A stretch of 39,693 nucleotides of DNA, taken from IMG/VR virus record IMGVR_UViG_3300009506_003034, positions 1 to 39,693 of that record; one strand, 5' to 3'. Positions 25,251 through 39,693 of the stretch are shown here, in pieces. Under the pieces are notes generated by a model. It saw only the letters and a list, made by a program, of their open reading frames with translations, was not told where the DNA came from and ran no database searches. The translations under genes and the position numbers were made by a program. This DNA is from a virus. Within the stretch, counting starts at the first letter, position 1, and each line of letters opens with the position of its first letter.

Positions 25251-28200
25251 TCATGCGATATAGAGATCATCCACTGTGTTTGCAAATGGCACTGATTCAA
25301 CATCATCGGCACGAATGCCAGTTGCAAGAAAGGTTACGACGAATTTTATCCAGTCACCACGCCTAAAATCACCGCGTTTAAAGTACTTAGGGTTAAATGT
25401 TATGTAGAAATTATCTCCACCACTTGTCATTTCAATTTGGCCAAAAGAACCTCCAGGCTTAACTTCCTTAATACGCCCATTCCATATATATGCATGGTCT
25501 TGAAAATTCCGTTCTTTAGAAGGAACTAGCTTTGTATCTTTCTTCCAAAAGTAACCACGTGGATAAGACTTTGAGAAAAGGCCACTTGCCCCTAGGTTCT
25601 GTATTGCAGTGCGTGCATCAGAAAATTCACGAAGCGCCATTGAAATTAATAAATTCCAGTACGCCATTTTCCTTTTCATTTCAGGTTTTACAATTTCAGA
25701 AGAGAAACGTTTTGCAGAATCAATAGCCAATGCAGCTTCTGTATAATTCTCATTTCGTGCTTGTATTTCAGCTTCCTTGATCCACAGATAAGCCTTTGAT
25801 TGCGATACTCCTTTTTGTTGTTGGAGTATCTCTATGGCAGTTTTAAAATCTCCCGATTGGTTTAATACGTCAGCAAGAAAAGCAGCCGCATATATTGAGG
25901 CTTTGCCTAGAGTTACTGCTTTCGTGAGTTGAGAGGTCAGGCTCTTTTTCTCCTCCTTGTTTAACCCGAATGTTTTTTGAAATCTTGATTCGAGCAGGAA
26001 ATTAAATCGATCATGTGGCACTACCTGTAGTCCTTCTCTGTAAAGGCTTGCGCCCTCTGCGACTAGATTATCTATCTTGATCCTATCACGTTCATTACTG
26101 ATCAATCCTAATAGCATGTCCAAATGAGTCACATATCCATACTCATCAGGTTCACCCTCTATCCTACTAAATGCAAAACATTCCCTAGCCTCTTCAAATT
26201 TGTTTTCAGCCCCTTCTGTATCTCCATTATTCAAAAAATGCATTCCCCACTTTTGCAAAACATTTCCTTTTGTATGCTGCACTGGTGGATATTCTGGGTT
26301 GTCTTCCTGAGCCCTTTCTGCCCAAGCAAGAGCAAGTTCGAATTCGCGTCTTCTAAGTAAGTATTTAGCGCCTTGTTGACATATTACCCAATCGTCATCG
26401 CTTGCGGTTGCTGCCTCTCTGAATAGTTTTTGAGTTTGTTCATCCGTTGATAAATTAATTTCGTAATCATTTATTTGTTTGACTAAACGTCGCATTTGTT
26501 CAAGATCAATCCTATGGCTCCGAAAATTTGCCAATAACAAAAATAGCTCTTCTTCGATTCTATCAGTATTGAATCCCGAGGCTCTAATTAGTTGATCAGC
26601 AATTAGAGAATGACGAGTTTGAACGCATGGTTCATCCTCAATGAGGACTTCAGCTAGATCGCCATTTCTGACGAGTGATTGATATAGCTCTAATATTTTA
26701 GATTGTTCATGATTAGCGAAACTGGATATTAACGGATATAGTCGTGGTGTAAACATACTCCCGAAGCGATGGAAGGCAGCAACTCTTATGATGAGATTTT
26801 TTGATTCTTCATTTGGCAGTCTTTTCCATGTATCAAAAATAATCTCAGAAAATGGCCGGTGCTCTTTATCAAATATCACCTGGAGGGCAAGAATCAGAGC
26901 AACGTCAGCCCCTTCTGCAATTATCCTTTGGACAACCAACTCACGTTGCGATTCATCCTTAAAAGTAGCTATATGATGGAGCGAGCAAAAATCTATTAGT
27001 TTTTGAACATCTAATCTTGACTCGTCTCCAATGCTAGGTTGAAATACTCTGGTCTTTCTAAAAATGGGATAATTTTCTAATAATGCATCAAATTCAGCGT
27101 CTCGAGCAGAGAAAATTAGTAAAAATTTCCTTCCGTTGCGAGATAGGGTTCTGAAAAGAGCCAGTACCTCGGGTATTCGCTCCGCGCAGTTGTCAGCTAT
27201 AACAATAGGTAAAGCATTTCTCGCCTCAATACCAACATTGGTTGCTAATTCTGAAATATCACTCAAAAGACCGTCGAGCCTTACCAAATCCCATGCGCCA
27301 CGCCTAATTTGCTTGCGTCCACTTGTCGCGATTTCCATAGTCCCGTAAGGATTCAACCATATAATCGGTCTTGAGGACCAATAAAATTGTATGGCTATGT
27401 CACGAAGGAGAAAAGTCTTACCCCATCCTGGTGGGGCAACCAAGCAAAGGAATTCTGCGTTCTCTTGAAAGTCTCGCTCTATCTCTTCAATAAAATTATC
27501 CCTGCAGGCTCTTTCTATAAAATGTCCATTTACAAAGCTACTCCAGGTCTCTTGACCATTTAAAGAATCTGTGACACTTGGTGGTTGCATGGCCTCTATG
27601 TAGTCACCAAGTATATCGAAATGCCGCTTATCATTTTCATAACCGTCGGCATTAATACTGAAAGTAGTCTGTCCGATAGGCACGATAATAGGTGGTCTTG
27701 TATCGAGAGAGGTGTAGTGCCCTTCCAACCTCTCACTAAGCACCTGCATGAAGTCGCCAAAGGTAGCATTATGCACCTCAATCTTAGAGGATTTAAGAAT
27801 AGCGCATGCTAAGTTGGCATAATTAGTAGCAGAATTGAAAGGAGTAATGCAGTAATGAGTACGGGCCGCTGGTCCCATTTCTCTAAGGAGATTTTGGAGT
27901 TGCACAAACTCAGGTGATGTACCCGGTATCGTCGAACCTGGATGAACAAACTGAAATCCAACAAATATTATTGGGCCATTAATGGCTTCTTGGCGCAAAA
28001 GAGAGTAAAAATCCTTTTCACGGCTAGCTGCCTCTTGTTGTTCAGCAAAAGTTAGTACAAGTTTATGATATACATTACGCTTTGCTTCATCAACAGAACC
28101 ATTCAGCTTTATTATACGAATTGTGTTTGGCTCATACTGGAACATCTGTGGATCTGAGGAATAGAATGGCAAATATCTTTGCACGCATTGGCGCGTTGAC

Positions 28201-28571
28201 TCGTAAGAGATTTCGATGAGTCTATCATAATTAGTCGTAAATATAGAACGCCACTTCAACATTGTCATTAGTTCGTGAGCAGTACTTGGAGGTCGTTTAA
28301 CTGATTCGGTAATTGTAGCGAAATAACTAATCACCTCATCTCGGACCCATTGTTCTCCAAACCCACGTTCAAAGTACAAATATTGCGCAACAGCATCTAA
28401 TGGTTGATCTGCCAATTTTGTGGTATGTGGCTCTCCTGCTTTTTTAGCTAAATGTACAGCCAACTCAGCCGCAGTGGGGAAGCCAGCTTCTCGAGATGCG
28501 CCAGCTCCCAGGAAAAGAGTTGCTTTCCCATTTGCAACATCAGATATTAACGGATTAGGAATCTCCATCAT
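25251..28571 (-). CDS. SIR2-domain P-loop STAND-like protein with repeats and OB-like tail
   Basis: 1106 residues. N-terminal SIR2-like domain (1-290): F-L-G-A-G-A-S (20-26), F-T-T-N-Y-D (111-116) and I-I-F-V-G-F-Q-F (201-208). The position usually held by the catalytic His (HGS) reads L-N-G-S with N157. A P-loop ATPase follows, with A-P-P-G-W-G-K-T (379-386) and P-I-V-I-A-D-N (about 453-459). Then come helical TPR-like repeats (about 690-1010). The last 85 residues (I-W-N-G-R-I-K-E-V, G-S-F-G-Q-I-E, G-D-W-I-K-F) resemble a cold-shock/OB fold. SIR2-STAND proteins such as Avs5 sense phage and deplete NAD. The gene is AT-rich and sits between early and late regions, as a cargo gene would. Confidence 0.8.
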   Translation of the reverse strand: MMEIPNPLISDVANGKATLFLGAGASREAGFPTAAELAVHLAKKAGEPHTTKLADQPLDAVAQYLYFERGFGEQWVRDEVISYFATITESVKRPPSTAHELMTMLKWRSIFTTNYDRLIEISYESTRQCVQRYLPFYSSDPQMFQYEPNTIRIIKLNGSVDEAKRNVYHKLVLTFAEQQEAASREKDFYSLLRQEAINGPIIFVGFQFVHPGSTIPGTSPEFVQLQNLLREMGPAARTHYCITPFNSATNYANLACAILKSSKIEVHNATFGDFMQVLSERLEGHYTSLDTRPPIIVPIGQTTFSINADGYENDKRHFDILGDYIEAMQPPSVTDSLNGQETWSSFVNGHFIERACRDNFIEEIERDFQENAEFLCLVAPPGWGKTFLLRDIAIQFYWSSRPIIWLNPYGTMEIATSGRKQIRRGAWDLVRLDGLLSDISELATNVGIEARNALPIVIADNCAERIPEVLALFRTLSRNGRKFLLIFSARDAEFDALLENYPIFRKTRVFQPSIGDESRLDVQKLIDFCSLHHIATFKDESQRELVVQRIIAEGADVALILALQVIFDKEHRPFSEIIFDTWKRLPNEESKNLIIRVAAFHRFGSMFTPRLYPLISSFANHEQSKILELYQSLVRNGDLAEVLIEDEPCVQTRHSLIADQLIRASGFNTDRIEEELFLLLANFRSHRIDLEQMRRLVKQINDYEINLSTDEQTQKLFREAATASDDDWVICQQGAKYLLRRREFELALAWAERAQEDNPEYPPVQHTKGNVLQKWGMHFLNNGDTEGAENKFEEARECFAFSRIEGEPDEYGYVTHLDMLLGLISNERDRIKIDNLVAEGASLYREGLQVVPHDRFNFLLESRFQKTFGLNKEEKKSLTSQLTKAVTLGKASIYAAAFLADVLNQSGDFKTAIEILQQQKGVSQSKAYLWIKEAEIQARNENYTEAALAIDSAKRFSSEIVKPEMKRKMAYWNLLISMALREFSDARTAIQNLGASGLFSKSYPRGYFWKKDTKLVPSKERNFQDHAYIWNGRIKEVKPGGSFGQIEMTSGGDNFYITFNPKYFKRGDFRRGDWIKFVVTFLATGIRADDVESVPFANTVDDLYIA

Positions 28572-28860: not shown

Positions 28861-29220
28861 CTAAAACAAATTCAACTGTCTCTCGGCCGACTCATCCTGA
28901 TCCATCTTGCCCGGCCTGGACAAGATGTCCTCAACCCAACGCTTGGAAAGCCTCCACTTAAGTGCAATTTCACGTACCTTGTGCCCCTCATTGTACTCTT
29001 TCCTGATAGCATCATCCCTAATTTGCCGAATCAGATAATCAATATTGCGAAAATACAAGTTCTGCCCCCGAAAGACTTGGGCCAGAAACAAGGTCAAAAC
29101 AACACCCATACTAGGCCAATGTTCCTCGATCATCTCGGCGATCCGCGCCAGGTCGCCCGGTAAGTGATCAATCTCTGGCCTATATTCCTCAGGTATTTCG
29201 ATCGGCTCAGCCAAACTCAA
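28861..29220 (-). CDS. mor: Mor-family transcription activator
   Basis: 119 residues. The N-terminal dimerisation part (1-70) includes D-L-A-R-I-A-E-M-I-E-E-H-W-P and L-Y-F-R-N-I-D. The C-terminal helix-turn-helix lies in G-H-K-V-R-E-I-A-L-K-W-R-L-S-K-R-W-V-E-D-I-L (about 79-100). In Mu, Mor turns on the middle promoter and the related C protein the late promoters. Here only one such gene is visible, so it may activate the late operon itself. Its start overlaps the GemA-like gene. Length is close to Mu Mor (129). Confidence 0.85.
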   Translation of the reverse strand: MSLAEPIEIPEEYRPEIDHLPGDLARIAEMIEEHWPSMGVVLTLFLAQVFRGQNLYFRNIDYLIRQIRDDAIRKEYNEGHKVREIALKWRLSKRWVEDILSRPGKMDQDESAERQLNLF

Positions 29221-29629
29221 CTCCCTCGCGTTTGCCCCAGTCTTTCAGGGCCTCGATCACTTTGTTTTTCTGATCCGCCGAACACCATTCCAGCCTGTTA
29301 ACCTTAACAGTCCGTTCAACAACTCTCAAAAGAGCCTTATTTGATCCGTTTTGTACGGCCCCGGCTTTAAAAAGGGTAATCCAAAGCGCCAGGATCTTCC
29401 GACTCTGACCATCGTAAGGGATCGTAGCATCAGGTTGCTTCGACTTATTCTTTGGCTGCCAGCCGAGTTGCTTGAAATGTTCTATCAATCGGCCAGATTG
29501 GACAGTTGTAAGATCTTTAGAGCTTCTTTTCCGAAACTTTTGCCATAAGATATCCCGGTAAACATCATCAGCCAGTCCCAGATCTCTAACGGCTATATGA
29601 ATTTTCTGAAGATATTTATAGCTGGGCAT
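29207..29629 (-). CDS. gemA: GemA-like protein (Mu gp16, DUF1018)
   Basis: 140 residues from the ATG at 29629, which has GAAGGA upstream; a GTG at 29662 would give 11 more residues but lacks a good site. The start Y-K-Y-L-Q-K-I-H-I-A-V-R-D-L-G-L-A-D-D-V-Y-R-D-I-L-W is the DUF1018 pattern, with a later basic K-L-G-W-Q-P-type segment and a C-terminal helical half. In Mu the gemA region affects host gene expression and DNA supercoiling; exact role unsettled. It precedes mor, as in Mu-like phages. Confidence 0.85.
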   Translation of the reverse strand: MPSYKYLQKIHIAVRDLGLADDVYRDILWQKFRKRSSKDLTTVQSGRLIEHFKQLGWQPKNKSKQPDATIPYDGQSRKILALWITLFKAGAVQNGSNKALLRVVERTVKVNRLEWCSADQKNKVIEALKDWGKREGVEFG

Positions 29630-29658
29630 TGTGTAATCCTTCGTTAAATCAGACCTGA

Positions 29659-30522
29659 TCACCCGCTACAAACTTCCGTCCTGGCAGTTTTCAAACACTG
29701 CATCAGGGTATCATAATGGTTCACAATCGCCGAAACAACAGACCTGGGTAAGCCAGATAATTTGGCAAGCTCTGTCGGATTTAACTCTAAAGTATCCATC
29801 AGTTTTTTAGGTGTCGACACGACGTCGACAGTTTCATTCTCAAGTGTCAACGCGCTGTCAACACTTTCCTCTTCAATTTCGACACCCGTCGACACTTCAG
29901 CTTGAACTGTCAACACATCTTCAGCAGGTGTTAACACACTGTCGACACCCTTTAGGACTAAAGCATCACGTCGCATCCTACCAGCCAGCCAGAATATCCA
30001 TAGATTAGTAAGCTGCAATGTAACCTTGAGAGCGATACCTGCCAGCAACCCGGCCCAGAAACGAATATCACTTTCAGACCGCTCTAAAATCGTCACCAGT
30101 TGTGACCTCTCTTTCCTCTGACTGCGAGTAGTCAAGGCAAGGTTTGTACTCTGTTTATTCTCCCTCATATAAGCAGCATTCGCCTTTTCCTGACTAAGTC
30201 CATCACTTAGCACCACCGCGATCCGCGTGTCCCTGTCTATATCGGCTATCTTGTCCCAGGCAGGTAAAGCTGTCTGTAAAGCAGAAACAGAAACTGCCAA
30301 ACTAAACAACAAAACCGTCAACAGGTTGATTGCCAGGTTGGCAAGCCGGGTGTTCAGTTTGACGCTGATCGCCAATGCCAAAAATATCTCAATAAGCGCC
30401 GCCTGCACATAACCCTGACCATACTCGCCATAAGCGGCGCTTTGCTGGTACCAAGCCCCAGCGTCAACAACGATCAAGGCCGCAGCCAACACGCCCAATA
30501 TTCTAAGTGCTATTGTTTTCAT
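29659..30522 (-). CDS. Membrane protein with C-terminal HTH-like segment, early operon
   Basis: Start chosen at 30522 (287 residues), where GCAGGAG precedes the ATG just after the previous stop; an upstream extension to 30666 would be out of place. Four membrane segments are visible (about 5-22, 35-52, 60-80, 150-175), with a charged loop in between. The C-terminal 110 residues are soluble, ending in a helix-turn-helix-like N-P-T-E-L-A-K-L-S-G-L-P-R-S-V-V-S-A-I-V. The linker is Val/Asp/Thr-rich and its DNA carries nine palindrome copies. Function unknown; perhaps a membrane-tethered DNA-binding protein. Confidence 0.7.
   Translation of the reverse strand: MKTIALRILGVLAAALIVVDAGAWYQQSAAYGEYGQGYVQAALIEIFLALAISVKLNTRLANLAINLLTVLLFSLAVSVSALQTALPAWDKIADIDRDTRIAVVLSDGLSQEKANAAYMRENKQSTNLALTTRSQRKERSQLVTILERSESDIRFWAGLLAGIALKVTLQLTNLWIFWLAGRMRRDALVLKGVDSVLTPAEDVLTVQAEVSTGVEIEEESVDSALTLENETVDVVSTPKKLMDTLELNPTELAKLSGLPRSVVSAIVNHYDTLMQCLKTARTEVCSG
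29811..29948. repeat. Nine copies of a GTGTCGACAC-like palindrome
   Basis: Copies lie at about 29811, 29822, 29844, 29855, 29876, 29886, 29907, 29928 and 29939, each close to SWGTCRACAC. They occur in two reading frames of the gene (codons GTC GAC and GTG TCG AC), so DNA sequence rather than protein sequence appears to be kept. Copies are about one or two helical turns apart. Likely a protein-binding cluster. Confidence 0.7.
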
Positions 30523-30523
30523 A

Positions 30524-31018
30524 TCAGCTCCTGCCGTGTATTTGGTCATACTTGCGCATGATCTCCGAGACCTCTCCATCTTGGTGACGATAGCTCCCGT
30601 TACCCTCAGCCTTTCTGATTCTTGACTCCTGACTTCTGTCTTCCTTGTCCGCCAGGCTCCAGGCAATATGCCGCAGATAATTGTGGTTCTTCAATGGCCG
30701 CTGTAATTGCTGCCTCCGCTCGATCATCTGCTCAATTGCCAAGGCCCAGATTCGGGGAGGACAAGGACGGGAGACTTTTCCCTGGACCTGTACATTTCCT
30801 GTCGCGACCAGCTTCAATAATTCTTCCGTCAAACGGTGCGCCTTCGCCCAGTTCAAAGCACTACTTTGCGGCCGGAATAGCGATAGATAACTTTTTATAT
30901 ATCTGTGTAAAGGTGCTGGCAAATCAAGCATTGCAGCATTCGCATGCCTGCTGTTGGTATCATTCTCCCAAGCTTCAGCGCTGGCGATCGCCCCACAAGC
31001 TGGACATGTCTGTTTCAT
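30524..31018 (-). CDS. Zinc-finger early phage protein
   Basis: 164 residues. The N-terminus has C-P-A-C-G (5-9), a single C-x2-C knuckle; the partner residues might be His25 or come from dimerisation. Then P-L-H-R-Y-I-K-S-Y-L-S-L-F-R-P (about 37-51) and W-A-L-A-I-E-Q-M (about 92-99), and a basic tail. Similar genes are found in early operons of Mu-like phages, with unknown function, perhaps in replication. The tail (about 128-145) has low complexity. Confidence 0.65.
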   Translation of the reverse strand: MKQTCPACGAIASAEAWENDTNSRHANAAMLDLPAPLHRYIKSYLSLFRPQSSALNWAKAHRLTEELLKLVATGNVQVQGKVSRPCPPRIWALAIEQMIERRQQLQRPLKNHNYLRHIAWSLADKEDRSQESRIRKAEGNGSYRHQDGEVSEIMRKYDQIHGRS

Positions 31019-32190: not shown

Positions 32191-33036
32191 TTAACTGTTT
32201 CTTAAATCGCATTTAATACAGGTTTTATACAGACGGATTAGCCTGGGATTTCCACACCTCACTCCAATTTTCTTGGCTTTATTGTAGGTGTCTGCACACT
32301 TTTCCGGTGAGATTTCCATTTGCACCGGACACTGTACCTTGCCGCCCTGGCCATACATTTTCATGACACGCTTTGCCATCTTTTCAATTCCTGCTGGATA
32401 TCTGTTGTTCAACAACAATGAGATCGCTGTCGGAGATATACCAAGCTCCCGTGCTGTGGCAGCATTGCCTATCTTGTCAACCCGCTGCTCTAATATCTTC
32501 AGCCAGCCATCGCCTAGCTCTAGTTCTTTCTTTTTTTCATCTGTCATTTTTTCACCTACCCATGGTCTCTTTGCCGTTGCTTTTTTAGTAACAGCAAACA
32601 CTTTCTGGTTTCCTTTTTTGCCTATAGTTTTGAGAATGTTGTTACGTTCAAGCAGCTTGGTAAAATCCTCAACAGTTGATACGCCCGCTCCTGACGATCT
32701 CATCAAATCAGTACGGGTAAATCCCCGTTTCTGTCGCCAGATCCGCCGCCAGATTTTATCACGCAGGGTATCTCTCTTAGGACGCATCTTGGGACGCTCA
32801 GATACATCACCAATAATCAACCAGGTGGGATTACGTTTTATGGGCCCATATTCTCTATTCATACGGGGCAGGGGTTCATCTCCTATCTGTTCCAGAAATC
32901 CCTCTTTTGACAGCTTGTCCAAGATCCGGAGGACCGCCTTGCGTGGAAACTCTGTGCCCTCAACAACCTGGTCAAGAGTCACCTTCTTGCGGGCGCTCAG
33001 CAGAAGGAAATGAATTACAGGGTCCAGCACTGTCAT
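32191..33036 (-). CDS. Multi-HTH early regulatory or replication protein
   Basis: 281 residues. A winged-helix-like N-terminus (about 1-55: K-V-T-L-D-Q-V-V-E-G-T and R-I-L-D-K-L-S-K-E-G-F-L), a second one (about 95-150: F-T-R-T-D-L-M-R-S-S-G-A-G-V-S), a classical HTH at about 195-215 (A-T-A-R-E-L-G-I-S-P-T-A-I-S-L-L) and a C-terminal cysteine group (C-P, C-A, C-G, C-I-K-C) that may bind metal. It overlaps the end of the B gene. A role in transcription or replication is inferred from the domains. Confidence 0.7.
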   Translation of the reverse strand: MTVLDPVIHFLLLSARKKVTLDQVVEGTEFPRKAVLRILDKLSKEGFLEQIGDEPLPRMNREYGPIKRNPTWLIIGDVSERPKMRPKRDTLRDKIWRRIWRQKRGFTRTDLMRSSGAGVSTVEDFTKLLERNNILKTIGKKGNQKVFAVTKKATAKRPWVGEKMTDEKKKELELGDGWLKILEQRVDKIGNAATARELGISPTAISLLLNNRYPAGIEKMAKRVMKMYGQGGKVQCPVQMEISPEKCADTYNKAKKIGVRCGNPRLIRLYKTCIKCDLRNS

Positions 33037-33734
33037 TTTTTCTTCTCCTTCTTCAGATATACCTGCAAGTGCTCGGCTCCTACTGTTTCAATACCCTTGT
33101 TGTGTTTGACTATACTTTCGGCCTGTCCAAACCAGGAAACTGTCAGCCTCAGCTTGCCTTGGCCATGATGCTTGATAAATCTAATCCCCGAATCATCAAT
33201 ATTGACCTCACAGATCTGTTCGGCTAGATTTCTGATCTCTTCTTCATCAAACAGTTCAAGTTTGACCACCGCTCTGATCCTGTCATACAGATGGCGGTAA
33301 CTTCTCAGTCTTCCATCAAGATTTTCCATGCCCATTAACACAATGGGTACATTAGTCATGTCGCTGATGTCTCGGATGGTTTCAATAACATCGGACTTAA
33401 CCAGATAGTCGACCTCATCAATAATGATGGGAGGGGAGAACTCATCAAGAATATTCAAAACCTGCTCAAACAGAGTATTTGTGCGGAAAGTAGGTACCTC
33501 CTTCAAGGAACCTACCAGGTCAGACAATATGGATCGGTGGGTGGAGGTTTTTAGCGCTCTCACATACGGAAAGCTATGCTGAGAGTTATACCAGTCGCCA
33601 ATCTCAGTTTTACCGCAGCCCGGAGGGCCATAGGCAAGCATAAGACCATATTTCCCCTTGATAGGAGTTCTTAAAATCTCCATCCCGGCCATAAAACGAC
33701 GTACATTTTTTGTCATTGCAAACGTCGATTTCAT
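33033..33734 (-). CDS. MuB-like AAA+ ATPase, transposition target activator
   Basis: 233 residues. Walker A G-P-P-G-C-G-K-T (36-43), Walker B I-I-I-D-E-V-D-Y (103-110) and a sensor-like I-V-L-M-G-M-E-N (about 128-135). MuB binds DNA with ATP, chooses targets and stimulates MuA. It lies directly after the transposase gene, as in Mu. It is shorter than Mu B (312), mostly through lack of an N-terminal HTH domain. A 39-base hairpin lies in its leader. Confidence 0.88.
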   Translation of the reverse strand: MKSTFAMTKNVRRFMAGMEILRTPIKGKYGLMLAYGPPGCGKTEIGDWYNSQHSFPYVRALKTSTHRSILSDLVGSLKEVPTFRTNTLFEQVLNILDEFSPPIIIDEVDYLVKSDVIETIRDISDMTNVPIVLMGMENLDGRLRSYRHLYDRIRAVVKLELFDEEEIRNLAEQICEVNIDDSGIRFIKHHGQGKLRLTVSWFGQAESIVKHNKGIETVGAEHLQVYLKKEKKK

Positions 33735-33823: not shown

Positions 33824-36049
33824 TCATCCTTCTGCTTCCACAAGGTTTCGGAGCCCCATTTTTTCACGCAGGTCACCCTCAAGCGTCAGATACATCATGC
33901 CACCAGGCTCTTTATAATATTCTGTTAACCAGTCATATTCCTGCTGGGTCAGCCCTTGAATTTTCCGCTCACGGGTTTTAATCCAGTTGTATTGATCACT
34001 TTTGGTTGTAAATATCGGCACAACCTTGCTGTTCTTTTTCTTCTGGTTGACAACGGGTTTTAGTTTTTGTTCCTGCTGCTCTGTTGCAAGCAGCCCTTGG
34101 GCGATAATATTGTCGATTGCCCGGTCTTCACGCCGGTCTCTCATTACTGCTTCAGCCGCTTTCCCGGCTTCCTCAAGAGCATTGGTGGTATATGTTTCAG
34201 ACGGTTTAGGGAATTCGATCACGTTGGCAAATTCTGCCTCGCGGTGTTCCAGGATACGCTCATGCATGTTGTCGAGCGCCTGTTTCCTGACCAGCTTTTT
34301 CAGCTCCTTGCGGCCTTCGCTCATGAGCTTCTTCTGAGTGGCCTTCAGTTTTGCCGCCTCTTCAGCGCGGTCAAGGCCCTTTCTCAGTGGGTCATAGGCA
34401 GCGCCCAGATACTTCCAATCTTCAGAGAACAGATAGATCGTGCCCAGGTCGGTTTTGTCCAGCTTGACCCGAACATCCTGACCGGCAAGGCTTGCGATTT
34501 CCTCGGAGAAATATCTGATCCTATCAACCCGGACGCCTTTCTTTCGTACAGTTCGAACTCCGCCGTTGCCGGGGACTTCAGCCAGCAGGATATCAAGTGC
34601 GCGTTCGTCCTCTATCCGCCGCTCAACTCCCTGCCAGATCCGTGCTACTTCCACCGGGCTCTTATTGTCCAGGCTCCTGTGCGGCTCCTGGTGATACATC
34701 GCATTGCACCAGCGGTCGCATAAGGTCTGCAGTTCCTCTGCCGTCATCTTGATTTCTACGATCTCTTCGCGTTTCATCAGTCTGTCGGCAAAACTCTTGC
34801 GCGCCTCGATCGCTTTGCGGTCACTTACATTATGGCCTATGTATCCAGGTAAAAGTGGAGCTATGGAGTGGGAAAAGGTTCGGAAAGCACGTTCGATATG
34901 CGGTTTTGCTTCCGGAGTAAAAGGCGGGCAGAGCAGCTGTTCGATCTCCAGGGTCTCAAAGACCTGGGTGATATGGTTGGAGACATAGTCGGAGCCGTTG
35001 TCCGTCTTGGCGATTTCCGGCACACCCCAGTCAAGGATTGCGCGTCTGACTAAGGCTGCTACTGCTGATGACTTTGAGGTCTTTGAGACGAGCAGTTTGA
35101 ACCGCCTGGTGAACACGTCTATTACGCCGATAATTGAATGGCGGCCGTCAGCAAGCATTACGTCGGCAGGTGTGGAGTCGAACTCCCACACTTGGTTGAG
35201 CCGAATGATCTTCTCTGAGGCATCTCCTGCCGCGTACATATGTTTGCTCTTCCAGGCGTCCGGGTTGGTCATGAGAAGGTATAGACTCTTGTTTTCTGTT
35301 TTCCATTTGCGTAGAAAACGCCGGACTGTGCTGTAGCTCGGCAAGTCTGTAAAACGTGTTGCCATGGCATCCATGATCATCTTTAATGAACAGTCCGGAT
35401 ACTTGACGATCATGGAGACGGCAAAGTCCTGTTGGTCATTGCCAAGAGAAGTTGCGCCCTTATTAGGATTGCAGTAGCCGTTGACCAGACCTGTAATGCC
35501 TTTTTCTTTATATGCTGCCTGCCATCTTTTTAAGTTCGACCAGGAAACGGTTTTTAAATATTTTCGGATTACCTCAGAGAGGTTGATCTCGCCTTCATTG
35601 AAATGTCTGCAGAAATATTGGGTAGCTTTTTTTCTGGTACAACCTGCCTGCTCAACATATGCCTGCCAGGTCAGCAGAACATCACGCCTGGCATAGGCTT
35701 TTTCCTGTTCTTCAATTGAATATTCATGAAAACGGGCAAGGAGACGTTCTTTTTTGATGCGTTCTTTCTCGTTATTTATTGCTTTGGTCTGGGCCACTTT
35801 TGCTCCGGCGATCGCGCCTGCGGTTGCATTTGGATTATGAGATGTAAAAGCACTCTGTGAAACATTGGCTCTTGCCAGTGCGATCCTGTAGGATTCAGGG
35901 AGGTGAGAAACGAAAAAATATTTACACCTACCGCCTCTGACATATCGCCAGGTGTAGGGACAGTTTTTCTTGTCCAGGGCACGACGGATTGTTGTCTCAT
36001 GTTTACCGGTTGCTGTTGCCAGTTCACTCAGAATAACTGTCTGTTTCAT
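33824..36049 (-). CDS. MuA-like DDE transposase
   Basis: 741 residues. N-terminal HTH (about 5-30: L-A-T-A-T-G-K-H-E-T-T-I-R-R-A-L), further DNA-binding helices (about 130-250), then an rve-type catalytic core: W-E-F-D-S-T-P-A-D with D291, K-T-D-N-G-S-D-Y with D350 and K-P-H-I-E-R-A-F with E386, the DDE triad. A Mu-transposase C-terminal domain and a basic tail (about 580-741) follow. It joins phage ends to target DNA both in lysogenisation and replication. It is longer than MuA (663). Start overlaps the upstream stop as ATGA. Confidence 0.93.
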   Translation of the reverse strand: MKQTVILSELATATGKHETTIRRALDKKNCPYTWRYVRGGRCKYFFVSHLPESYRIALARANVSQSAFTSHNPNATAGAIAGAKVAQTKAINNEKERIKKERLLARFHEYSIEEQEKAYARRDVLLTWQAYVEQAGCTRKKATQYFCRHFNEGEINLSEVIRKYLKTVSWSNLKRWQAAYKEKGITGLVNGYCNPNKGATSLGNDQQDFAVSMIVKYPDCSLKMIMDAMATRFTDLPSYSTVRRFLRKWKTENKSLYLLMTNPDAWKSKHMYAAGDASEKIIRLNQVWEFDSTPADVMLADGRHSIIGVIDVFTRRFKLLVSKTSKSSAVAALVRRAILDWGVPEIAKTDNGSDYVSNHITQVFETLEIEQLLCPPFTPEAKPHIERAFRTFSHSIAPLLPGYIGHNVSDRKAIEARKSFADRLMKREEIVEIKMTAEELQTLCDRWCNAMYHQEPHRSLDNKSPVEVARIWQGVERRIEDERALDILLAEVPGNGGVRTVRKKGVRVDRIRYFSEEIASLAGQDVRVKLDKTDLGTIYLFSEDWKYLGAAYDPLRKGLDRAEEAAKLKATQKKLMSEGRKELKKLVRKQALDNMHERILEHREAEFANVIEFPKPSETYTTNALEEAGKAAEAVMRDRREDRAIDNIIAQGLLATEQQEQKLKPVVNQKKKNSKVVPIFTTKSDQYNWIKTRERKIQGLTQQEYDWLTEYYKEPGGMMYLTLEGDLREKMGLRNLVEAEG

Positions 36050-36294
36050 GCCGCGGCCTCCCGCATATCATCAGGAAGGTCCAGGTATTCAGCCGGGCAG
36101 CCCAGGTCCAGGAGGTAGCTTAAAACAGCTCTGCTGTTTCGCCAGCCGTTTACGGTCTCGGATGTCTGGGTCAGTTGTCTATGGCCGATAGCCCTCTGGA
36201 TATTAACCAGTGATATGCTGCGTTCCGCGAGCCAGCCACGTGCTTTGCTGCGGTCTTTTTTTATAATCTTCCTGATCCTGACAGTTTTTTTCAT
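36046..36294 (-). CDS. Small DNA-binding early protein
   Basis: 82 residues, directly upstream of the transposase and overlapping its start. Basic N-terminus (K-K-T-V-R-I-R-K-I-I-K-K-D-R-S-K) and an HTH-like part S-L-V-N-I-Q-R-A-I-G-H and V-N-G-W-R-N-S-R-A-V-L-S-Y-L-L (about 28-62). It could be a Ner-type repressor of early transcription, but no clear match. Confidence 0.6.
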   Translation of the reverse strand: MKKTVRIRKIIKKDRSKARGWLAERSISLVNIQRAIGHRQLTQTSETVNGWRNSRAVLSYLLDLGCPAEYLDLPDDMREAAA

Positions 36295-36312
36295 TATGCT
36301 TTGCCTTTGTCG

Positions 36313-36972
36313 CTAGAGTTCTTCTGCGGCTGCCAGTAATGCCCTCAAATTTTCGATAAGCATTTTTTTGCTGGTGTTGCGCCAGCCGTTATTGATCTCA
36401 GTTTCAATAACGGAAACAAACTGTCTGAAGGCTTCGTCCATTTCGGCAGAGATCTTCTGGCCGTTATGCCCCCTGGCCTTTAATCTTTTGATCTCTTCTT
36501 TTATTGGAGTCTGTTTGTATTCACGGACGCATTTCTCGACGAGGTCAGATGTGATCCGGATATTTTCTGTTGATGAGGTATCAAGGACTCGTTTCCAGAT
36601 CTCGATCTGTTCTTCTTTGGAAAAGGGGACAAGCGGCCGGATCTGACGTTCGCTGGTTGGGAGAATGTCTACCATGGTAGACATTTGGTTCTCTTCCTCC
36701 AGTTGGATCATCTCCAAGTTCTTGGCAGCTTCGGCGCTCTTGATTAATTGATAGGCACGTTTTGCTTTGACGTCCCACACTTGGATCATGTACTCGTCAA
36801 AGGTTTTGTATTCGAAACGGTAAAGGCGGGAGTCTCTAATTTCAGCCAGTGCCATGCCGACATTTATATATCCTTTGAGATTAGTATCGACTACAGCTTC
36901 AAGTTCTGCCAGTCGTCTTTGCTCATTTCTGGACAGTGGCATTTCTTCCTTATCGACTCTTGTTATTTCCAT
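36313..36972 (-). CDS. Early DNA-binding protein, ParB-like HTH
   Basis: 219 residues. Y-I-N-V-G-M-A-L-A-E-I-R-D-S-R-L-Y-R (about 35-52) and K-T-F-D-E-Y-M-I-Q-V-W-D-V (about 56-68), then A-Y-Q-L-I-K-S-A-E, are seen in phage and plasmid proteins with a ParB-related DNA-binding part. The rest is helical and charged. Second or third gene of the early operon, so a regulatory or replication role is inferred. Not a named family with certainty. Confidence 0.6.
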   Translation of the reverse strand: MEITRVDKEEMPLSRNEQRRLAELEAVVDTNLKGYINVGMALAEIRDSRLYRFEYKTFDEYMIQVWDVKAKRAYQLIKSAEAAKNLEMIQLEEENQMSTMVDILPTSERQIRPLVPFSKEEQIEIWKRVLDTSSTENIRITSDLVEKCVREYKQTPIKEEIKRLKARGHNGQKISAEMDEAFRQFVSVIETEINNGWRNTSKKMLIENLRALLAAAEEL

Positions 36973-36982
36973 TTTTCATCCT

Positions 36983-37402
36983 TTACAGTTCGGGTTCCAG
37001 TCGGCGCATTTGTATGCGCTCTTTTTTTGCCCTTTGATAATGTTTTGCCCACTGCAGCAGTTTGACGTCCTGTTCTTCTATTATCAATCCGCCAAGTGGA
37101 GATAAGAGGACTCGCATTGGTTCCAGGTCTTCGACCGCGCCGCAAAAAACGACCAGTGCGTTTGGTGAAGGGATATATTCCTTGGCATTAGGGTTCAGCC
37201 ACTTTTCGAACGTGGCCATGGTCAGGGATTGACCGTTTCCCTTGAGAAGGCGGACGCCGTATCGGTCGGCCAGATCGTTCATTCGGTCAAGCACTTCGTC
37301 TCTTGATAATCCGCTTTGCTTGACCGACTGAGCCATCTGGTCACTGAGTGACCTGTTGATGTTGAAACTTATTTGGTTAAATAGATTCAGCTGTTTAGAC
37401 AT
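36983..37402 (-). CDS. Early regulator-like protein, HTH type
   Basis: 139 residues, first clear gene downstream of the early promoter. S-V-K-Q-S-G-L-S-R-D-E-V-L-D-R-M-N-D-L-A (about 26-45) and T-M-A-T-F-E-K-W-L-N-P (about 61-71) suggest a phage-type HTH. It lies where Mu has ner, the early negative regulator. The ATG has only a weak ribosome site. Function inferred. Confidence 0.6.
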   Translation of the reverse strand: MSKQLNLFNQISFNINRSLSDQMAQSVKQSGLSRDEVLDRMNDLADRYGVRLLKGNGQSLTMATFEKWLNPNAKEYIPSPNALVVFCGAVEDLEPMRVLLSPLGGLIIEEQDVKLLQWAKHYQRAKKERIQMRRLEPEL

Positions 37403-37545
37403 CCGTCTTTTTGGCTATTTTCATGAAGCTTTGGTGATGAGAAGAGACGTTTTTTTTTCACTATCCAGGCCGACTCTCCATCACTATCCGATCTTTTACG
37501 CTGATGGACGTTGACCCAAGTCCCAAAAAACAGTAACTTAAACAT
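37387..37545 (-). CDS. Possible small leader-region protein
   Basis: A 52-residue frame, M-F-K-L-L-F-F-G-T-W-V-N-V at the start, fills the leader between the early promoter and the 37402 gene and overlaps that gene by 16 bases. It has no good ribosome site. A longer reading from 37605 is impossible for mRNA from the promoter at 37599-37571. May be leader RNA only. Confidence 0.3.
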   Translation of the reverse strand: MFKLLFFGTWVNVHQRKRSDSDGESAWIVKKKRLFSSPKLHENSQKDGCLNS

Positions 37546-37570
37546 GTGATAAGTATCACATCTGTATATA

Positions 37571-37599
37571 GTATTAGCGCAAATATTGTGCACAGTCAA
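37571..37599 (-). promoter_or_regulatory. Early lytic promoter (sigma70)
   Basis: Minus strand: TTGACT (37599-37594), 17 bases, TAATAC (37576-37571). A near-consensus promoter with ideal spacing, reading into the early operon. An inverted repeat GCGCAAAT/ATTTGCGC (37577-37584 and 37607-37614) overlaps the spacer and the region upstream of -35, in good position for repression. Confidence 0.75.
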
Positions 37600-37612
37600 G
37601 CTCAAAATTTGC

Positions 37613-37725
37613 GCAGGACTTAACTTTGTTCTCTTTTGCTAATTAATTCAGCTTCTACCTGTTTATTCAACTAGTTATATAAAGTCCTGCGTTTTCACCA
37701 TTATGCAGGACTTTATGCAGGACTA
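37613..37725. promoter_or_regulatory. Operator cluster, four copies of GCAGGACTT
   Basis: Copies at 37613-37621, 37682-37690 (inverted), 37705-37713 and 37717-37725 (last base A). They lie between the early promoter and the repressor gene. This is the layout of phage operators; the repressor or an early regulator probably binds them. The 37682 copy follows a TATATA box (37676-37681) that might be the repressor promoter's -10. Confidence 0.7.
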
Positions 37726-37753
37726 AATTAATATTAACCAAACGTTAAAGCCT

Positions 37754-38209
37754 ATGAATGATGACTTGAAAAAAGCAATCGGGGAAAGGATAAAATTTGT
37801 GCGAGGTGGTTTGAGTAGAGAGAAGTTTGCGCAAAAAATAGGCTCATGTCGAAATTCAATAATGCGTTACGAAAACGGGAAAGCGTCACCAAGCATGGAG
37901 TTAATGGCTAGAATTTGTACAGAGTTTAATATTTTACCAAACTGGCTTCTTTTGGGTGAAGGCCCAAAATACAAAGGTAACGAAGCTGAAGGTAACAAAA
38001 AAGAAAATAATAATATCGGATACTTAGAAGATCCATTCATAACAACAATTAAGAAATGGCTTATAAAAATGATATCTAAAAACCCTGACAGGATGGCCTG
38101 GTTCAGGGTAGAAATGCTTAAACATTTCCCAGAGTTAGAAGAATACCACGAACAAGAAGAGGCGAAAAAGGGGGCAAGTGATTCCTTTGAGGAGGGTGCA
38201 GCAGGTTGA
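37754..38209 (+). CDS. cI-type phage repressor, XRE HTH, no protease domain
   Basis: 151 residues. HTH at about 20-43 (L-S-R-E-K-F-A-Q-K-I-G-S-C-R-N-S-I-M-R-Y-E-N-G). Then I-L-P-N-W-L-L-L-G-E-G-P, typical of phage repressors. The C-terminal half is acidic and helical, with no S24 peptidase Ser/Lys pair, so induction by RecA-driven self-cleavage is unlikely. It is divergent from the early operon, like Mu c. The ATG has a weak ribosome site. Likely keeps lytic genes off. Confidence 0.85.
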   Translation: MNDDLKKAIGERIKFVRGGLSREKFAQKIGSCRNSIMRYENGKASPSMELMARICTEFNILPNWLLLGEGPKYKGNEAEGNKKENNNIGYLEDPFITTIKKWLIKMISKNPDRMAWFRVEMLKHFPELEEYHEQEEAKKGASDSFEEGAAG

Positions 38210-38264
38210 TAACAAAAAATCGGATAGATACCATAGCGTAACCACCCAATTCAATTAGTAAAAT

Positions 38265-38284
38265 TACCTAAAATCATTTAGGTA
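38265..38284. terminator. Hairpin downstream of the repressor
   Basis: TACCTAAA (38265-38272) and TTTAGGTA (38277-38284) form an 8-bp AT-rich stem with a four-base loop, followed by TTTCTACC. It may be a weak terminator for the repressor transcript or part of the phage end structure. Confidence 0.35.
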
Positions 38285-38294
38285 TTTCTACCTA

Positions 38295-38359
38295 TCGCAA
38301 AACTTAACAATTTGTAGTTTCGATAAAAGTAACGACTAAAATAAATTTAAAAATAGACA
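38295..38359 (-). other. Phage left end with two transposase-site-like repeats
   Basis: TCGCAAAACTTAAC (38295-38308) and TCGATAAAAGTAAC (38320-38333) share TCGNNAAANNTAAC and are 25 bases apart, like the MuA binding sites near Mu ends. The end CA (38358-38359) closes the terminal repeat TGTCTATTTTT on the minus strand. I could not find the same repeat at the other end. Confidence 0.45.
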
Positions 38360-38388
38360 AAATTATTTGAAGTTCCAAGAAGTTGTGC
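38360..38388 (+). other. Truncated attC interrupted by the prophage (right flank)
   Basis: Plus strand: 22 bases after the phage end comes the core GTTGTGC (38382-38388), the exact complement of the end core GCACAAC (39259-39265) of the DUF3800 cassette. This marks the start of an intact plus-strand cassette; the outer half of the attC is missing. Confidence 0.65.
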
Positions 38389-38412
38389 ATTCAAATCATA
38401 AGATGAGACTCT

Positions 38413-39234
38413 ATGAAAATTTGCTACTGCGATGAGAGTGGTACAGGAGACGAACCAATTGCCGTCTTGGTTGGTGTAGTTGTCGATTCTCAAAGAATGC
38501 ATGTTACAAAAGAACATTGGGGTGACTTGCTAGAAAGTTTATCTACGGCAATTGGTAAAAAATTAAGCGAATTACATACCAGAAATTTTTATGCAGGCAG
38601 TGGTGTTTGGCATGGAATGGAGGGGAATAAGAGATCTGAAGTAATCAGCCTCGTTTTTAAATGGATAAAAGAGAGGAAGCATCACTTTGTTTATTCAAGC
38701 GCGGTAAAAGAAACATATTACGCAAACCTTGCTGCTGGAAAGATCCCAACTGAGCTTAACACCCTTTGGAGATTTCTTGGGTTTCATTTGGTTCTTTCGA
38801 TGCAGAAAAAATATCAAAGCGAAAATAAAAATAAAGGAAATACGATTTTTATCTTCGATAATGAGGAAAGAGAGCAAATGAGGTTTACAGATCTCATCAA
38901 CAATCCACCAGCATGGAGCGAGACATTTTACAGAAAAGGCAGAAAACAAACTCCTCTCGACCAAATGGTAGATGTCCCATATTTCGGTGATTCAAAGGAA
39001 GTGCCTCTAATCCAGGTGGCTGACTTTATGTCTTTTTTTCTGCGCAAATTCGGAGAATTAACAGACGGCTTTTTGAAGCCGAGTTATAAAGGCGAAACTG
39101 AGAAGGTTACTAATTGGGTAAAAACAATAGGTGAGAGGTCAATCGGGCGTTCGATTATTTACCCAAGCAAAGGAAGGTGCAACTGTGCAGAGTTATTTTA
39201 CCAGCACGCGCCACGCTCAATAGCCACTTTGTAA
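38413..39234 (+). CDS. DUF3800 protein, cassette gene
   Basis: 273 residues of the DUF3800 family. M-K-I-C-Y-C-D-E-S-G (1-10) with the conserved Asp-Glu pair, T-I-F-I-F-D-N-E (about 149-156) and I-Q-V-A-D-F-M-S-F-F (about 201-210) with a conserved Asp. The fold is thought to be RNase H-like, so a nuclease role is possible. DUF3800 genes are common in cassettes, phages and defence islands. Both cassette ends are visible, so it is complete and reads plus. Confidence 0.85.
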   Translation: MKICYCDESGTGDEPIAVLVGVVVDSQRMHVTKEHWGDLLESLSTAIGKKLSELHTRNFYAGSGVWHGMEGNKRSEVISLVFKWIKERKHHFVYSSAVKETYYANLAAGKIPTELNTLWRFLGFHLVLSMQKKYQSENKNKGNTIFIFDNEEREQMRFTDLINNPPAWSETFYRKGRKQTPLDQMVDVPYFGDSKEVPLIQVADFMSFFLRKFGELTDGFLKPSYKGETEKVTNWVKTIGERSIGRSIIYPSKGRCNCAELFYQHAPRSIATL

Positions 39235-39258
39235 CCACTTAAAATATGGGAACAAATC

Positions 39259-39326
39259 GCACAACAAAGCAATTCAGTGGAAAAGTTGGCCTGTGGCCAA
39301 TTTTCCGTTGATCGCAGCCGTTAGGC
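39259..39326 (+). other. attC site, 68 bp, clear hairpin
   Basis: R'' GCACAAC (39259-39265), a stem GGAAAAgTTGGCC (39279-39291), loop TGT, GGCCAATTTTCC (39295-39306) and R' GTTAGGC (39320-39326). The stem is perfect apart from one extra G in the first arm. Core GTTAGGC matches the GTTRRRY consensus fully. Orientation plus. Confidence 0.9.
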
Positions 39327-39378
39327 ACTGTAGAAATACTAATATTTTACTTAAATACGAAATTATTAAGAGGTAGTA

Positions 39379-39693
39379 ATGAAAAGGGAAAAATTATTCT
39401 TTTTACTTTTATTTATTTTTTTCGCTTTACTAATAAGTGGCTGTGCTGCCAAAACACGCATTACCTCATCTCCTCCAAATTGTAGTGTTTCCTTAAATGG
39501 GAACTACATAGGTTCAACACCATTTGATGCATATATTAAAGATGTTTTTGGTTTCTTGTCAGTTTACGAATTTGTTGCAACTAAGGATGGTTACACATCT
39601 GATACGATAATAATAACAGAATCTATAACTGATGATGCCTCAAGGGTTATACCAAGTCATATTCATTTTGATCTGGAAAAATTATCTGAATAA
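39379..39693 (+). CDS. PEGA-domain-like lipoprotein, cassette gene
   Basis: 104 residues. Signal peptide with lipobox L-I-S-G-C (18-22), so probably lipid-anchored. Then T-S-S-P-P-N-C-S-V-S-L-N-G-N-Y-I-G-S-T-P (30-49), the core of a PEGA-type beta domain, and a further beta-rich part. These surface domains are of unknown binding role. It starts just after the attC core, so it belongs to the next plus-strand cassette. AGAGGTAGT precedes the ATG. Confidence 0.75.
   Translation: MKREKLFFLLLFIFFALLISGCAAKTRITSSPPNCSVSLNGNYIGSTPFDAYIKDVFGFLSVYEFVATKDGYTSDTIIITESITDDASRVIPSHIHFDLEKLSE

Follow-up and report, generated by a model that had tools for sequence, protein, structure and literature searches.

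A helically phased array of palindromic sites within an orphan gene of a Mu-like phage

Iteron arrays situated within the linker-coding portion of the binder's own gene are already known for replication initiators, and in phage lambda the iterons bound by the O protein lie within the O gene. Lambda O occupies four 19-bp iterons as a higher-order assembly termed the O-some (PMC3985674). Phage DNA can also be organized at a membrane, as in the case of phi29 p16.7, an integral membrane phage protein with this role (PMC4974454). In the prophage-borne AlpA/alpS system, the alpS sites occupy a promoter region and an actin-like protein serves as partner (PMC5539076). In phage Mu, the strong gyrase site (SGS) functions best at the centre of the genome (PMC10052514). 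Here we describe nine closely packed sites with a palindromic core that lie in the linker-coding portion of a gene for a predicted membrane protein, and we compare this locus with each of these systems.

The phage and the gene that holds the array

The window analysed is a single 39,693-nucleotide stretch of viral DNA, catalogued as a virus in IMG/VR. It encodes a transposase (MuA), a MuB-like ATPase, and DUF3164, GemA, Mor, Portal_Mu and Mu_F proteins. The matches to MuA, MuB, GemA, Mor and Portal_Mu bear out the comparison with Mu in the first-pass annotation and identify this as a Mu-like phage. The features that matter most are as follows.

29659..30522, minus strand: array-holding gene (P0002), encoding a 287-amino-acid orphan protein with a predicted N-terminal membrane domain, a linker and a putative C-terminal helix-turn-helix (HTH)
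29977..30522, minus strand: predicted membrane domain, residues 1-182 (hydropathy)
29662..29820, minus strand: putative C-terminal HTH, residues 235-287, four helices, Cro/C1-like (AF2, Foldseek, weak Pfam)
30524..31018, minus strand: phrog_2161 gene, next upstream of the array gene
29207..29629, minus strand: gemA, next downstream of the array gene (Pfam GemA, 1e-33 on the longer ORF 29207-29662; ATG at 29629)
28861..29220, minus strand: mor-like activator gene, downstream of gemA (Pfam Mor, 1e-10)
33033-33734: MuB-like ATPase
33824-36049: transposase
32191-33036, 36046-36294 and 36983-37402: early HTH-like regulators

Several other features of the window were recorded. Adjoining mor is a gene (25251-28571, minus strand) for a 1106-amino-acid protein with SIR2-like, STAND NTPase and TPR parts, which resembles anti-phage defence proteins of the ThsA/Dsr/Avs5 type and has a GC3 of 0.32, below that of its neighbours. 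Beyond the repressor, a DUF3800 protein (38413-39234, plus strand) weakly matches a candidate defence model. The regulator gene at 36983-37402 contains an inverted repeat of 24 nucleotides (88%, with a 23-nucleotide loop) at 37270-37340. Finally, GCAGGACTT recurs at positions 37608-37727 between a divergent early gene and the repressor, with three direct copies and one inverted copy, which are probable repressor operators.

The best relatives of the phrog_2161 gene are found in Desulfobulbales prophages and viral contigs, and in most close relatives in which both genes are recognised, gemA begins within about 60 bp after phrog_2161 (loci with negative distances, which derive from weak matches, were left out). 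In others, the gap that corresponds to window positions of about 29630-30524 is filled by unrelated small genes (L168, L170-L173 and others). Judged from these loci, the phrog_2161-gemA junction is an insertion spot for accessory genes. Neither the 287-amino-acid gene nor a comparable array is present in over 120 related loci. Searches with the whole protein, the membrane part or the HTH part returned no close homologue from viral contigs. The same was true for the gene in genome contigs, phages, plasmids and sets of 13, 258 and 395 genomes, which are samples that may overlap and in which pattern-based scans reach only close relatives. A phmmer search over all ORFs of the fetched loci gave only matches with E above 0.2. 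The base composition of the gene (GC 0.48, GC3 0.49) equals that of the phage, and therefore it is no obvious recent import.

Hydropathy reveals strong hydrophobic segments at residues 4-22, 38-56 and 63-81, and a fourth, weaker segment near 160-180, followed by RMRR, was read by eye. The position of RMRR after the fourth segment favours a cytoplasmic C-terminus. The prediction is thus three to four transmembrane segments, and the HTH could lie outside if there are three. The array encodes about residues 192-238, which form the linker that joins the membrane domain to the HTH, and it stops where the HTH begins. This array-coded segment is modelled with low confidence and partly as coil (AF2). 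The HTH part itself is modelled with a pLDDT of 84.6, and its Foldseek matches are XRE/Cro cores, although these are weak (E about 0.3-1), as are its Pfam HTH matches (HTH_3 0.014, below the cut-off). VIA-align rows all have middling Z and were left out of the family assignment, and the full-length AF2 model (pLDDT 52) was rejected as unusable. These models and matches give weak support for a Cro/C1-like HTH at the C-terminus. No Pfam, PHROG or NCBIfam match to an initiator domain (Lin1244_N, O-like or VapE) was obtained for the protein.

Nine sites on one face of the helix

An array site was defined as a 10-mer with no more than three mismatches to GTGTCGACAC. Nine such sites occur within 138 bp, with a gene-strand consensus of GTGTYGACA and a core of GTYRAC. 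The first-pass annotation had reported nine motifs packed into this interval, and this count holds; the nine starts run from 29811 to 29939 and all fall inside it.

29811..29948, minus strand: array of nine sites
29939..29948, minus strand: site 1, first within the gene, GTGTCGACAG
29928..29937, minus strand: site 2, GTGTTAACAC
29907..29916, minus strand: site 3, GTGTTGACAG
29886..29895, minus strand: site 4, GTGTCGACGG
29876..29885, minus strand: site 5, weakest of the nine, GTGTCGAAAT
29855..29864, minus strand: site 6, same letters as site 3, GTGTTGACAG
29844..29853, minus strand: site 7, GCGTTGACAC
29822..29831, minus strand: site 8, CTGTCGACGT
29811..29820, minus strand: site 9, perfect palindrome, GTGTCGACAC

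The perfect 10-mer is found at only one of the nine sites (start 29811). All nine match TGTYRACA at seven or more of its eight positions, and five match it exactly. Orientation on the gene strand is mostly uniform, as evident from the G at position 6 of GTGTYGACA in eight of the nine, and therefore the array is better termed a set of direct repeats with a palindromic core. A scan of the window found no second TGTYRACA cluster.

Chance does not readily yield such a cluster. When all palindromic 6-mer classes in the window were scanned without bias, the eight copies of GTYRAC in 134 bp formed the largest cluster, with the runner-up class reaching five in about 110 bp. Windows simulated with a third-order Markov model (n=300) never held more than five sites in 140 bp, versus the eight observed. 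Across 100,000 synonymous recodings of this protein, drawn according to the codon usage of the phage, the mean was 1.2 sites and the maximum six, versus nine observed, an effect that far exceeds the freedom gained by taking the motif from the data before the test. Five sites lie in one reading frame of the minus-strand gene (encoding V-[LS]-T or A-L-T) and four in another (V-D or V-E). The excess over synonymous recoding, together with the use of two frames, indicates that selection acted on the DNA, and the array is a DNA-level array rather than a protein repeat.

The first-pass annotation had already argued from the two frames that no protein repeat explains the motif, and that argument is upheld. 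Selection for V-[DLS]-T at heptad-like steps of about 3.5 residues in the linker, with the DNA motif as a by-product, could draw on the recurrence of VDS-x-LT and on the equality of 10.5 bp and 3.5 codons, by which heptad and helical spacing coincide. However, one 8-mer is read in two frames to give different residues, and synonymous recoding loses the motif, which makes this explanation highly improbable.

Successive sites are separated by 11, 22, 11, 21, 10, 21, 21 and 11 bp. These spacings correspond to a helical period of 10.61 bp (R=0.959), with p=1.6e-4 relative to random spacing of nine non-overlapping sites over the same span, and p=5.5e-5 when the random draws are restricted to two frames. 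All nine lie on a single face of the double helix, an arrangement that suits proteins docking side by side.

The palindromic copies might instead act in the early mRNA, by folding it into a long hairpin that influences its processing or the translation of gemA. The array mRNA is predicted to form a hairpin of -68 kcal/mol, which is more stable than dinucleotide shuffles (z = -7.6) and than free shuffles of the spacers (0 of 200 reach it). However, when the sites were held fixed and the spacers synonymously recoded, 16 of 300 sequences folded equally well (z = -1.7), and therefore the palindromes themselves account for most of the hairpin stability. An RNA function would not require helical spacing, and there was no Rfam match. 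The hairpin seems to be a consequence of the array and not its cause, and an RNA element is accordingly very improbable as an explanation. The best reading of the 138 bp, and one we hold with considerable confidence, is an array of protein-binding sites.

Regulatory readings and the same palindrome in other phages

The first-pass annotation had offered an operator array, an enhancer, or a centre for phage DNA pairing. Of this proposal the protein-binding array survives, whereas its specific forms, an operator for the phage repressor, a Mu enhancer and a central gyrase site, do not. The intergenic region between the repressor and the early genes carries GCAGGACTT instead, and TGTYRACA is absent from 36000-39693. 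A transposition enhancer or central gyrase site like those of Mu is in keeping with the Mu-like gene content, yet an enhancer would be in the wrong place here, and neither the repressor nor the left end has copies nearby. In contig coordinates, as distinct from mapped phage ends, the array is at 29.8-29.9 kb and the repressor at 37.8-38.2 kb of 39.7 kb. This position, about 8-10 kb from the repressor-side end, is off-centre for a gyrase site, and the array is not conserved, being absent from the related loci examined. We consider this explanation barely plausible.

The search of related phages and host genomes that the annotation had suggested yielded no comparable array. For arrays of any palindromic 6-mer, the relatives again held nothing comparable (L217 gives 11 GC-rich matches). 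A strict three-site pattern applied to 253 Desulfobulbia genomes likewise found nothing comparable, and the three 3-site matches that it returned are isolated and unlike the array. Since the phage has no second cluster and these genomes contain nothing like it, there is no sign of a host regulon.

A different regulator of the phage could be the ligand. Bound by one of the early HTH-like regulators, the array would serve as an operator or roadblock within the gene and would time transcription into gemA-mor. Several early genes are HTH-like, and gemA and mor follow closely downstream of the array on the same strand. However, TGTYRACA occurs nowhere else in the early region, where the repressor-early segment has the GCAGGACTT family, and relatives with the same early-gene context do without the array. 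We therefore regard this explanation as unlikely.

The same palindrome does occur in unrelated phages. Among viral contigs, a three-site TGTYRACA pattern gave 101 stretches versus 79 for a reversed-motif control, and this raw count was rejected as a sign of anything special. Clusters of at least four sites with divergent flanks numbered 44 versus 3 in the control, and those that were helically phased as well numbered 18 versus 1 (near-duplicate contigs included in all of these latter counts). Most of the control clusters are tandem repeats or peptide repeats whose flanks are nearly identical. Foremost among 96 proteins encoded next to or around such arrays are VapE-like (16), DUF5906 (15) and Lin1244_N (6) proteins and SNF2/DEAD helicases. 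Ten named phages were also checked, and clear TGTYRACA arrays were found in two of them, Listeria phage LWP01 and C. difficile phage phiCDKH02, in each case directly after the VapE gene. Lin1244-type initiator genes, which were picked because they contain sites, carry TGTTGACA every 10 or 21 bp in their linker-coding part (NVDxN repeats).

L043:6030-6220, and in L048, L059, L086, L101 and L112: Lin1244-type genes with TGTTGACA in the linker
L319:3936-4196, L320:3901-4157, and in L042, L069, L096, L100 and L106: TGTYRACA arrays, many beside VapE/DUF5906-type helicase-primase genes, several helically spaced

The arrays beside VapE/DUF5906 genes are probably phage replication origins. A search of the literature for TGTYRACA as a phage origin motif found nothing relevant. 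Not all Lin1244 or VapE phages use this motif. The VapE phages Fontainebleau (GGTAACG; L318:3900-4200) and Troy (TTGTCCC; L321:3900-4290) have other repeats in the same place, as read by eye, which suggests that origin iterons change motif between VapE phages.

No VapE, DUF5906 or Lin1244 replication gene was recognised in the window. The array could nevertheless be a captured origin or decoy, a copy of VapE/DUF5906 or Lin1244-type iterons that draws off the initiator of rival phages. The membrane protein would assist in sequestration, and its gene would be an accessory one devoted to interference. In keeping with this, the palindrome is common to replication-module arrays of unrelated phages, among whose 96 neighbouring proteins VapE-like and Lin1244_N types recur, an origin would be of no evident use to a Mu-like phage, and the gene sits in an accessory spot of a phage that also has a SIR2-STAND gene. 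There is also a precedent in lambda, where extra iterons on a plasmid lower the establishment of lambda plasmids (PMC3985674). Against it, the motif may have arisen by convergence, the Desulfobulbia genomes scanned revealed no replicon of this kind, and VapE-phage origins elsewhere also use other motifs. On balance we judge a decoy to be improbable.

A candidate self-bound docking array compared with known systems

The explanation that we favour, to which we assign slightly less than an even chance, is a cooperative array bound by the HTH of the membrane protein itself, which would tether phage DNA, control gemA-mor, or do both. Nine mostly one-directional GTGTYGACA iterons on a 10.6-bp lattice, facing one side of the helix, would constitute the cooperative binding array. 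Its likeliest ligand would be the Cro/C1-like C-terminal HTH, which the predicted topology places in the cytoplasm. Several copies of the membrane-anchored protein would then dock next to each other, thereby tying phage DNA to the inner membrane, and the bound array could also serve, a short way before gemA and mor, as an operator or roadblock within the gene. Here we infer the binder, its cooperative binding and any consequence for tethering or regulation.

Self-binding, with this HTH as the ligand, we consider about evenly balanced, reasoning by analogy from the position of the array and from initiators that hold their own sites. The placement of the array between the membrane domain and the HTH counts in favour of self-binding, Lin1244-type initiators and lambda O offer a precedent for sites within the binder's own gene, and phi29 p16.7 offers one for a membrane protein that organizes phage DNA. 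Several considerations count against the proposal. Dimers of the Cro/C1 type usually contact half-sites about one turn apart, but the TGT and ACA halves of an array site are only about 5 bp apart, and therefore a ligand of another kind, such as a ribbon-helix-helix or winged-helix protein, may bind. The weakness of the HTH match (Pfam below the cut-off, Foldseek E about 1) counts against self-binding, and the reliance of the topology on hydropathy, with a weak fourth segment, counts against a cytoplasmic HTH. In the case of an orphan protein, homologues offer no coevolution of HTH and motif in support of self-binding. Furthermore, replication by transposition calls for neither an origin nor a centromere, and such a phage would gain no evident benefit.

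A broader form of the docking proposal, which we hold to be doubtful, is that the self-encoded array fastens any DNA bearing the gene, whether prophage, transposition copies or incoming genomes, to the inner membrane. The same protein might also capture the origins of rival phages, which is conceivable because the palindrome is common to the array and to the replication iterons of unrelated phages.

Each known system resembles this locus in part. The Mu enhancer and strong gyrase site are likewise internal control sites of a transposable phage, but the array is positioned otherwise and relatives do without it. With the ParR/parC and AlpA/alpS centromeres it has in common short repeated sites near the binder's own gene, although here the array is intragenic; a scan of the early genes, which are part of the gene complement of the contig, found no gene for a motor or filament partner. 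Phi29 p16.7, compared by description rather than by sequence, is also a phage integral membrane protein that contacts phage DNA, a contact that is putative here, but it acts on single-stranded DNA and terminal protein, and the account cited describes no site array for it (PMC4974454). The VapE/DUF5906 arrays of Listeria phage LWP01 and C. difficile phage phiCDKH02 have the same palindrome and many sites in 130-250 bp, but theirs are intergenic, of mixed orientation and in a replication module, genes of which were not found here.

The closest likeness is to lambda O with its origin and to the Lin1244 (DUF4373)-type initiators, in which repeated sites, putative in the present case, also lie in the linker-coding part of a gene for a DNA-binding protein. 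The Lin1244 group also has the TGTYRACA palindrome and the 10/21-bp spacing. The differences are that the protein here is a predicted membrane protein with a putative C-terminal HTH, that no initiator domain was detected in it, and that its phage transposes. If the docking proposal is true, a membrane protein with such an array in a phage that replicates by transposition would represent a new use of this arrangement, either as a self-marking membrane tether or as an intragenic switch before gemA-mor. More generally, the comparison suggests that helically spaced TGTYRACA arrays are a recurring and easily searched mark of VapE/Lin1244 phage origins.
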